A DNA stretch of 64,000 bases from Natrinema salinisoli. GTDB lineage: Archaea; Halobacteriota; Halobacteria; Halobacteriales; Natrialbaceae. The notes under the pieces are model-generated. The model made no database searches and had not been told where the DNA came from. It saw nothing but the letters and a program-made list of their open reading frames with translations. Below are positions 11,470 through 31,743 of this stretch, piece after piece (positions within the stretch are counted from its first letter, which is position 1; the number at the start of each line of letters is the position of its first letter). The DNA lies in assembly GCF_020405205.1 (NCBI RefSeq), contig NZ_CP084469.1, positions 2,728,001-2,792,000 of the forward strand, written 5' to 3'. Position numbers and translations under genes: made by a program.

Positions 11470-11736
11470 ACGGTATGATTGCTCGGCAACGTTCTTAAAT
11501 CCGTGTCCGCCTGATCGGCGAGAATCTGACCGTGGTCTATGTTTACTGTGACCACTACTAGATCCCCATAGACTCGCTCTACCATCAGAGATAGCGGCCT
11601 CGGCACTCATAGGGCTCGTCACCACCGGATGCCGAGTCCGGCTCGGAGCGGGTGCATCGTCATCGGCCACGCGACGCTACGGCGGTCGCTCAAAAGACGG
11701 TTTGGATTCGCCAGAAATCTGCCCCGAGTCCTCGAG

Positions 11737-22743: not shown

Positions 22744-23025
22744 GACTGACCAGTCAACATGCGGTGGCGCGCGCTGTCGACCGACCGAACGGCGCGAGGC
22801 GCGAACGGAGTGAGCGCCTCGGAAAGCGAATAGCGCGGGACCGATGGTCCCGCGTACCATGCGAACGGCGCAAAGCGCCGTGAGCAGACGGTGACCGTAG
22901 GGAACCGTGAGCACAGTGAGGGCGGTCGATACCACTGCGCGAGGGATGAGCGAGGGAGCACCGCGACCGAGCGAATCGGTTGGGGAGGGCGTGGCGATTC
23001 CGTGGTTCCACGATAGCAGAACGCT
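22744..23025 (-). repeat. Dispersed palindromic repeat, copy R1 (inverted relative to R2)
   Basis: Read on the minus strand, it begins AGCGTTCTGC, continues ACCACGGAATCGCCACGCCC and a region with CCGATTCGCTC and TCGCTCATCCCTCGC, and ends near GCGCGCCACCGCATG ... CAGTC. The same sequence in the same order is at 23871-24030 on the plus strand. R1 has about 120 extra bases made of short palindromes (GCGCAAAGCGC, GGGACCGATGGTCCC, GGCGCGAGGCGCG). No transposase is present. Confidence 0.75.
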
Positions 23026-23142: not shown

Positions 23143-23317
23143 GCATTAGTTATAAGTTAGTTCACGAGAACGTTCAATCGGAGCGGGTCTCCAAACGTGT
23201 GAACGGAGGGGGCTGCATCGAAACGCCCCGGGTGCTGCAACACCCGAGACTCGCTTCCAATCCCGCGAGGGATTCGAAAGCATGACCGCATACATCCTAC
23301 CGGGATATAAACGTCCC
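23143..23317 (+). ncRNA. Conserved structured element, copy A (putative ncRNA or leader)
   Basis: About 175 bases that recur at 31570-31743 on the other strand. The left end reads GCATTAGT-TATAAGT (TATA-like at 23150-23157), the right end GGGATATAAACGTCCC, identical in both copies. Possible stems: GGGGC 23209-23213 with GCCCC 23225-23229; GGGTG 23230-23234 with CACCC 23241-23245; AATCCC 23259-23264 with GGGATT 23269-23274 around a GCGA tetraloop, inside GCTT 23253-23256 with AAGC 23278-23281; GGGA 23302-23305 with TCCC 23314-23317. An indel pair breaks any common reading frame, arguing against coding. The zinc-ribbon gene starts 80 bases downstream. The TATAAA in the last loop could also be that gene's promoter. 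Confidence 0.5.
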
Positions 23318-23397
23318 GCACGACAGTGGAATCAACCCCAGCAACCAGCGACAGCACCCGATCACGGGGACCGGCCGTATCGCCGCCGGAGGCCGCG

Positions 23398-23628
23398 ATG
23401 AGCGACGACAGCGCGGACCCCACGAGCAGCGACTCATCCGCTCCCACCGCCGACACGCCGTACTCAATCGAGCGGGCGAAGGAGCGCTTCGACCCCGCGC
23501 TCCCCGACTGCCCCCTCTGTGGCACCCCCATCTGGGCCGTCTCGGTCATCGGCCCCCTCGAGGCCAGCGCCTCCCCCTGTGGCTGTACGGTCACGCCCGG
23601 CCTCCTCGAGACCGACCGCGGGTACTGA
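23398..23628 (+). CDS. Zinc-ribbon microprotein (paralogue 1, 76 residues)
   Basis: A disordered Ser/Asp-rich N-terminus, a short helix (SIERAKERFDP), then a compact metal site: CPLC (C38, C41), a 19-residue beta-hairpin-like spacer, and PCGCTV (C61, C63). The end is PGLLETDRGY. The paralogue at 31323-31490 aligns without gaps from the Leu-Pro before the first Cys to the end (shared LP-CP-CG-P...GP..A...PCGC-V-PG-LE). Both genes follow a copy of the 174-base structured element. Small CPxCG proteins are abundant in haloarchaea and act as adaptors or regulators in the studied cases; this one is unassigned. Confidence 0.75.
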   Translation: MSDDSADPTSSDSSAPTADTPYSIERAKERFDPALPDCPLCGTPIWAVSVIGPLEASASPCGCTVTPGLLETDRGY

Positions 23629-23870: not shown

Positions 23871-24030
23871 AGCGTTCTGCCCATACTGGCACCACGGAAT
23901 CGCCACGCCCTCCCCAGCCGATTCGCTCAGTCGCCTCGCTCCTTCGCTCATCCCTCGCACGGCATCGAGCCGCGGTTCACTCGTCGTTCACCGCGGCTCA
24001 GCGTGCGCCACCGCACGGTGGTAATCAGTC
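23871..24030 (+). repeat. Dispersed palindromic repeat, copy R2
   Basis: Shares with R1 the start AGCGTTCTGC, the block ACCACGGAATCGCCACGCCC, CCGATTCGCTC, TCGCTCATCCCTCGC, and the closing GTGCGCCACCGCA ... CAGTC. About 85-90 bases match at roughly 85 percent by eye. R1 and R2 are in opposite orientation and bracket 845 bases containing structured element A and the zinc-ribbon gene. The 242 bases from 23629 to 23870 before R2 hold no gene. Confidence 0.75.
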
Positions 24031-31322: not shown

Positions 31323-31490
31323 TTATTCGGAGTCGGACGACTCGAGCGCGCCAGGTGCGACCTGGCAGCCACACGGCGCGACGACGGCCGTAATCGGCCC
31401 GCTGGTGGCCGTCATCGTCACCGGATTCCCGCAGCCGGGACAGGCGGGAAGTGAGTCCGGTGCGGACGAATCGGCGTCGTCAGCAGGCAT
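31323..31490 (-). CDS. Zinc-ribbon microprotein (paralogue 2, 55 residues)
   Basis: ATG at 31490 to taa. After a short acidic N-terminus the metal site is CPGC (C17, C20), 19 residues, then PCGCQV (C40, C42), ending PGALESSDSE. Spacing C-x2-C-x19-C-x-C is identical to the protein at 23398-23628, and shared residues (LP, GP, PCGC, V-PG-LE) make common ancestry certain. It is preceded by structured element B (31570-31743), 79 bases upstream. A four-cysteine zinc knuckle is the likely fold. Confidence 0.8.
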   Translation of the reverse strand: MPADDADSSAPDSLPACPGCGNPVTMTATSGPITAVVAPCGCQVAPGALESSDSE

Positions 31491-31569
31491 GTGGTCTCCG
31501 ACGGGTCGGACTCGAGAGTGCGAGTTTCAGCGCTCTTGCTCCGCGTAAGAGGCGATACGACGGTCGTTC

Positions 31570-31743
31570 GGGACGTTTATATCCCAGTAAGATGTACGAA
31601 ATCATGGCTTCGAGACCGCGCTGGTTTGGAAGCCACGTCTCGGGTGCTCTAACACCCGGGGCATTTCGACGCATGCCCCCTGCGGCGGATTGGAGCGTCG
31701 CTTCCATTCTAATCGTTGACGTGATAGTACTTATGACTAATGC
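31570..31743 (-). ncRNA. Conserved structured element, copy B (putative ncRNA or leader)
   Basis: Homologous to 23143-23317 end to end and of the same length. On the minus strand it begins GCATTAGTCATAAGT and ends GGGATATAAACGTCCC. Stems at the equivalent places, in plus-strand numbering: GGGGCAT 31658-31664 with ATGCCCC 31673-31679 (seven pairs, two more than in copy A); CGGGTG 31641-31646 with CACCCG 31653-31658; GGCTTC with GAAGCC enclosing a shorter inner stem ACC/GGT in place of AATCCC/GGGATT. Pairing is kept although arm sequences differ, which supports an RNA structure. It precedes the minus-strand zinc-ribbon gene. Confidence 0.5.

Follow-up and report, generated by a model that had tools for sequence, protein, structure and literature searches.

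The window considered here, a 64,000-nucleotide stretch of the genome of Natrinema salinisoli (contig NZ_CP084469.1, positions 2,728,001 to 2,792,000), contains two homologous copies of a small cassette at 23143-23330 (+) and 31555-31743 (-), with 73% identity over ~208 nt (blastn, E 5e-25). The full-length minus-strand relative of copy 1 claimed by an earlier, sequence-only reading of this DNA is thereby confirmed, as are the zinc-ribbon genes that it placed about 80 nt downstream of both copies (ORF starts at 23398 on the plus strand and 31490 on the minus strand). At the left end of the element lies a TATA-like box (CANTAGNTATAAGT in canonical copies), and the structured, transcribed portion begins ~25 nt past it with the 5' strand of helix P1 (GGAAGCC), followed by hairpins P2 and P3, the 3' strand of P1 (GGCTTCC), the P4 arms, a near-copy of the P1 5' strand and an invariant ATG. 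The ATG opens an upstream ORF that contains hairpin P5 from position +19, and the remainder of this ORF leads into the ribbon gene. The features of the two copies are as follows.

Copy 1
23150..23157 (+), TATA-like box TTATAAGT, from the -24 motif statistics of canonical copies
23173..23320 (+), structured leader RNA, whole covariance-model match (R1 135.8 bits, R2 123.1 bits)
23180..23186 (+), P1 5' strand GGAGCGG, from covariation
23208..23229 (+), P2 hairpin GGGGGC/GCCCC with conserved GAAA, from covariation
23230..23245 (+), P3 hairpin GGGTG/CACCC, from covariation
23252..23258 (+), P1 3' strand CGCTTCC, common to P1 and the alternative hairpin P4L, covarying with both partners
23259..23281 (+), P4 arms AATCCC/GGGATT and the start-codon-proximal strand GAAAGC, the second partner of CGCTTCC, from complementarity analysis and predicted energies
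23282..23401 (+), upstream ORF MTAYILPGYKRPARQWNQ..., its stop TGA overlapping the ribbon ATG (ATGA), from reading-frame comparison
23301..23318 (+), P5 hairpin CGGGAU-AUAAAC-GUCCCG within the upstream ORF at AUG +19, from compensatory changes and constant distance
23398..23628 (+), zinc-ribbon microprotein, C-x2-C-x19-C-x-C, from ORF and family comparison
Copy 2
31729..31736 (-), TATA-like box TCATAAGT, from motif statistics and sequence
31567..31711 (-), structured leader RNA, whole covariance-model match (R1 124.8 bits, R2 127.4 bits)
31699..31705 (-), P1 5' strand GGAAGCG, from covariation
31628..31634 (-), P1 3' strand GGCTTCC, from covariation and complementarity
31606..31611 (-), start-codon-proximal strand GAAGCC, complementary to GGCTTCC
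31569..31586 (-), P5 hairpin UGGGAU-AUAAAC-GUCCCG, from covariation and constant distance
31480..31605 (-), upstream ORF MISYILLGYKRPERPSY..., its stop within ATGCCTGCTGA at the ribbon start, from reading-frame comparison
31323..31490 (-), zinc-ribbon microprotein MPADDADSSAPDSLPACPGCGNPVTMTATSGPITAVVAPCGCQ..., from family comparison and an AlphaFold2 beta-ribbon (pLDDT 76)

The element had been described as non-coding, which holds for the promoter and the structured 5' leader and fails for its 3' part, the head of the coupled upstream ORF. Likewise, indels break the shared reading frame of the two copies as claimed, but only upstream of 23282 and 31605; downstream of these positions the shared upstream ORF reaches the ribbon start codon. 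A ~33-nt dispersed repeat (GGAATCGCCACGCCCTCCCCAGCCGATTCGCTC) flanks copy 1 as an inverted pair (22972-23002 and 23896-23928 of the window), and a resembling sequence also occurs upstream of two further copies (L004 and L020).

The leader RNA and its coupled reading frames

Covariation supports the predicted helices P1, P2 (GGGG/CCCC with a conserved GAAA loop), P3 (GGGTG/CACCC) and P5. In a structure-fitted alignment of 32 sequences, P1 included, two-sided changes occur in 16 of the 22 pairs, with 57 such cells compared with 9.4+-2.8 in shuffles, which ignore relatedness (0/500), and 94.6% of cells are paired compared with 31-50% when the strands are slid, a control that keeps relatedness. 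Among 86 divergent sequences, aligned by covariance model (a MAFFT alignment that was off by one around P1 was set aside), the changes extend to 21 of 22 pairs (329 cells against 97+-7 shuffled) and 91.8% of cells are paired (37-51% when slid). The paired arms that the sequence-only reading found to be kept despite sequence change are real, and they covary. Its proposal of an RNA-based leader or sRNA stands for the 5' leader, which the covariation supports; nothing supports a trans-acting sRNA. As with riboswitches, a conserved structured RNA lies in the 5' UTR upstream of genes.

A TATA-like motif is found at -24 of the start of the RNA model in 91% of 75 canonical copies, compared with ~0-9% elsewhere within 200 nt upstream. 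The motif of divergent members peaks at -28 to -23 (about 70% of 84, against a background of 0-12%), and about 30% of these members have no obvious TATA box. Since the TATA box is not part of the RNA model, its position provides independent support for the RNA as the very 5' end of the transcript; for copy 1 the predicted start is near 23175. A second promoter at the invariant ATAAAC of P5 is not favoured because this segment forms P5 with compensatory changes and because the overlap of the upstream ORF stop with the ribbon start needs ribosomes arriving from upstream. In many divergent promoters (L250, L261, L253 and others) the TATA box sits at the middle of an inverted repeat, for example GTAGTACATcGATGGTTTTAATACCATGTACTAC, located between ~45 and 10 nt ahead of the RNA, which suggests a repressor operator and a second layer of control.

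The 25 copies of the window's genome found by blastn contain no indels across the aligned 40 nt after the invariant ATG, and in most copies the frame stays open for 28-59 codons, whatever the length of the linker. Its stop lies -2 to +8 nt from the ribbon ATG in all 104 testable copies, compared with 11/103 and 7/104 for the other frames, the commonest stop/start forms being ATGA (52), ATGNNTGA (42) and ATGNNNNNTGA (9). Overlapping stop and start codons are the mark of termination-reinitiation pairs, and termination-reinitiation at ATGA-type overlaps has been shown with reporters in Haloferax volcanii (PMC6728339); ribbon synthesis by this route is therefore expected. Some divergent members have no upstream ORF, so that the RNA directly adjoins the gene, and in divergent members chance often suffices to produce a -4 overlap with an unconserved ORF.

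Substitutions in the upstream ORF have no third-position excess (28/15/28, 17/31/25 and 66/67/67 at codon positions 1/2/3, the last set after codon 18), and the ribbon core in the same related pairs has 194/211/371. The third codon positions of P5 are nearly invariant, and nucleotides 22 (G/A), 25 (T/C) and 35 (C/T) change together in a manner that keeps the stem, G-C becoming A-U and the neighbouring U.G becoming C-G. Fixed third positions combined with covarying pairs indicate that the conserved head of the ORF is RNA structure. A leader peptide as functional product is ruled out by the even codon-position counts and the near-invariant third positions in P5, and the amino-acid conservation expected of an arrest peptide or leader-peptide attenuator is not seen. 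P5 keeps a nearly constant distance from the AUG (+17 to +20), and 46 of 83 divergent members possess a clear P5 of at least 5 bp.

The ribbon proteins (n=110) are 46-131 amino acids long (median 63) and strongly acidic (11.2 acidic vs 4.6 basic residues), and 109 of the 110 keep the claimed spacing C-x2-C-x19-C-x-C. With a typical length under ~70 amino acids and two cysteine knuckles, they resemble C(P)XCG zinc micro-proteins. No Pfam or NCBIfam model matches the ribbon above cut-off and PADLOC returned nothing significant. The AlphaFold2 model is a small beta-ribbon (pLDDT 76) for which Foldseek found no significant PDB match (best E 1.2, generic ribosomal zinc ribbons). The protein is a putative zinc binder, judging by the cysteine pattern and the modelled beta-ribbon. 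In six Natrinema copies (L009, L013, L014, L015, L016 and L022), a third tiny zinc-ribbon ORF (MTGPRADEPKRCPDCGAVLPLRDPIVGWWLCDDCELGVDENGERVTE) lies ~110-180 nt past the cysteine core of the ribbon.

Distribution of the family and the genes it precedes

The sequence-only reading knew two copies of the cassette; the genome has many more. Searches of the window's genome found 25 copies by blastn, 26 with a covariance model built from the blastn copies (R1) and 29 with a broader model (R2), so that 26 are canonical and 3 divergent. The copies are mutually diverged (73-87% DNA identity) and are not recent duplicates. A zinc-ribbon ORF follows 24 of the 25 blastn copies, one of which (L010, with CPCYG) was judged by eye; in the remaining copy, L007, the upstream ORF is broken and the ribbon frame has decayed. 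The 29 genomes surveyed from the genus contain nearly equal numbers of elements and ribbons (234 vs 237, r=0.99), and the two genomes without elements are also without ribbons. The canonical form is found in 78 of 125 Natrialbaceae genomes, representing 23 of 29 genera, including Natrinema, Halopiger, Halovivax, Natrialba, Halostagnicola and Natribaculum, on megaplasmids too, with 0 to about 29 copies per genome (a count of 25 in the Natrialbaceae survey stands for at least 25). Four loci in Halopiger djelfimassiliensis (L085, L124, L136 and L158) have near-identical elements, an upstream ORF of ~90-170 codons and no recognisable ribbon downstream; they are apparently a different subtype that has possibly spread recently.

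The cassette of copy 2 is present at the orthologous site in two genomes, and in four others conserved flanks enclose a short gap without it. Model R2 found no element at this site in any of the other 27 genomes. The copy 2 cassette is gained or lost as a unit of ~600 bp, and neither terminal repeats nor a target duplication were seen at this one occupied/empty site compared.

With model R2 the family extends to 143 of 243 Halobacteriales genomes and 60 of 77 genera (E<=0.001). When 247 genomes from across the phylum were sampled (E<=1e-4), the 20 positives all came from this order and nothing outside it matched. No Rfam 15 family was found at the element in 15 loci, even at E<=5; the only Rfam match in the window is a C/D-box guide RNA, sR-tMet (RF02163, 72 bits), at 11596-11668 (-). 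The open-access literature yielded no earlier description of the RNA, and one may exist elsewhere; the RNA family itself appears to be new. Viral contigs had no match to the exact P5 pattern, and phage records had no blastn match to three representative elements. Two looser patterns returned ~200 viral-contig loci, 80 of which were rescored with R2 and gave one weak match (E 0.02) that was taken as chance.

The constant pairing with a zinc-ribbon gene that had been proposed holds for the canonical Natrialbaceae subfamily and does not extend to the superfamily; the RNA class also occurs before genes other than zinc ribbons. Downstream of divergent members lie genes for tyrosine integrases and PadR-type regulators (Pfam) and for other cysteine-rich proteins, and paired cysteine motifs were found in 35 of 84 downstream ORFs compared with 2 of 53 window genes in a crude count. 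Divergent members in Haladaptatus precede SWIM zinc-finger genes, for which the ATG adjoining the RNA has been annotated independently as the start codon. The integrase and PadR cases include plasmid pHK2 of Haloferax lucentense, on which the upstream ORF again overlaps the next annotated CDS. Seven loci (L239, L247, L250, L264, L272, L275 and L198) have an operon for a cysteine-rich protein and a Cas7-like protein (..SPFTLSGWLRHGCE..) after the RNA. This operon, which matched nothing in Pfam or PADLOC, may resemble haloarchaeal HRAMP (Cas5/Cas7 homologs). The HRAMP system has been described (PMC8730458).

A proposed switch and its alternatives

The 3' strand of P1 is also complementary to the bases just before the AUG and covaries with both partners. 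Because this one strand serves both P1 and the long start-codon hairpin P4L, only one of the two helices can form at a time. In canonical copies, GCC adjoins the ATG exclusively when GCTTCC has a G in front of it (73/21 vs 0/24; Fisher 5e-13, relatedness ignored). At least eight distinct compensated strand/partner forms exist among divergent families, including GGTCTTCC/AGAAGACC, GGGTTTC/GAACCC, GGGTTCCC/AAGAACCC, GGCCTTC/GAAAGGCC and GCGGTTCCC/AAGGAACC. The mean complementarity of P4L is 5.46 of 6 pairs compared with 4.80+-0.07 with shuffled partners (0/5000), and the alternative helix is imperfect in some copies, such as L151. The layout of P1 and P4L, as read from these complementarities, is that of a sequestor/anti-sequestor switch.

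The reading we prefer, at a probability of about 0.72, is that the element acts in cis as a bistable 5' leader RNA and gates translation of the first ORF, from which termination-reinitiation would carry ribosomes into the ribbon gene. Comparative analysis demonstrates the pieces on which it builds: the architecture, two alternative helices that both covary, the overlap of stop and start codons, the position of the TATA box and, within the genus, the one-to-one pairing with the ribbon. Transcription would start ~25 nt past the conserved TATA box, and the RNA would consequently begin with the P1 5' strand. In the first state, this strand would pair with the P1 3' strand (GGAAGCC:GGCTTCC) and close the P2/P3 junction, leaving the bases before the AUG free. 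In the second, the P1 3' strand would pair with the near-copy of the P1 5' strand before the AUG to form P4L, which would end 0-1 nt from the start codon. Because the start codon abuts P4L, we infer that P1 is the ON state and P4L the OFF state. P5, at +19, would lie just beyond the expected reach of the initiating ribosome. The first ORF would serve to convey ribosomes, with no selection on its peptide sequence, and the ribbon would be made by reinitiation at the stop/start overlap. A signal, which may be a metabolite, an ion, a protein or salt, would stabilise one of the two states.

The predicted energies of P1 and P4L lie close together, with a mean difference of only 3.6 kcal/mol, in keeping with a bistable RNA. 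P1 is mostly favoured, with the lower predicted energy in 24 of 32 sequences, and the bistability may be incidental if P1 always wins. The leader would then be a static structured 5' UTR, always folded as P1, that protects the 5' end or aids initiation without a Shine-Dalgarno (SD) sequence, its AUG-proximal strand resembling the P1 5' strand for another reason, for example because the ribosome or an initiation factor recognises it. The stability of P1 in most sequences agrees with such a leader, and the constant position of P5 fits an initiation-region architecture. However, at least eight distinct forms show the AUG-proximal strand changing together with the P1 3' strand, as a fixed recognition motif would not, which makes a static leader unlikely.

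Feedback by the product, raised as a possibility in the sequence-only reading, is another explanation. The ribbon could bind its own leader, or a fragment processed from it, as an autoregulatory loop or a stable RNP, and the near one-to-one counts of elements and ribbons, together with the enrichment of paired cysteine motifs downstream of divergent members, point in that direction. The same class of RNA nevertheless precedes integrases, PadR regulators and SWIM proteins without a ribbon, and thus the ribbon protein is not the general ligand. The protein is also strongly acidic, and its best Foldseek match gives no indication of RNA binding. We consider this explanation quite improbable, although the ribbon protein could act on the RNA within its own canonical subfamily. 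That the conserved DNA is instead the end or target of a non-autonomous mobile element, conserved for reasons other than RNA, would suit the range from 0 to about 29 copies within one genus and the presence or absence of the copy 2 cassette, but is very improbable given the compensatory pairs, the fixed-spacing TATA box and the coupled ORF, all features of RNA or translation, the lack of terminal repeats and target duplications at the one site compared, and the divergence of the copies.

Likeness to known systems and significance

A leader gated in this way would have parallels in several described systems. As in translational riboswitches, one strand can pair with either of two near-identical partners, one of which adjoins the start codon, and the RNAs occupy the 5' ends of mRNAs for diverse genes. 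Unlike translational riboswitches, the strand adjacent to the AUG is not a Shine-Dalgarno sequence, an additional conserved hairpin lies in the coding region at +19, and the family has no known ligand, no Rfam match and, in the sample, no members beyond Halobacteriales. In archaea, cis-regulatory RNAs are scarce, even when predicted ones are counted (PMC7247131). The S15 ribosomal-protein leader of Halobacteria is likewise a structured cis-regulatory 5' leader from the same archaeal class, and it precedes rpsO, recJ or rps3ae (PMC7247131), whereas the downstream genes examined here include neither a ribosomal protein nor a ribosomal-protein operon. The ATGA overlap is expected to couple two ORFs as in the overlapping genes of H. 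volcanii (PMC6728339) and in regulation by upstream ORFs or leader peptides, but the peptide here is not conserved and the conserved part is the RNA structure around its start codon. The C(P)XCG zinc-finger micro-proteins of H. volcanii, several of which give phenotypes upon deletion, are also very small haloarchaeal proteins with two zinc knuckles (PMC10716476). In contrast to these, the ribbon has the spacing C-x2-C-x19-C-x-C with PCGC as its second knuckle, falls below the cut-off of the Pfam and NCBIfam models, and belongs to a lineage-specific paralog family tied to a leader RNA.

A wider interpretation can be put forward tentatively, at somewhat less than even odds. The family would be an order-wide archaeal RNA switch, present in tens of copies per genome, that senses a signal and gates SD-less initiation by exchanging one strand between the 5' terminus of the transcript and the nucleotides directly before the AUG. 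Such a switch would be common to zinc microproteins, integrases and regulators of viruses and plasmids, and a putative CRISPR-derived defence operon, and would thus constitute a common signal for mobile DNA and its control. That the RNA stands ahead of integrase and PadR genes, and possibly of an HRAMP-like operon, suggests that haloarchaeal mobile DNA shares a control signal.

The control of leadered, SD-less haloarchaeal mRNAs is poorly understood, and an RNA family found in most sampled genera of Halobacteriales makes it directly testable in culturable Natrinema, Haladaptatus and Haloferax. The zinc-microprotein family and the coupled ORFs, previously unannotated and overlooked, can now be named. 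The RNA probably turns on or off the production of zinc microproteins and integrases, along with the expression of other genes tied to mobile DNA or possibly to defence.
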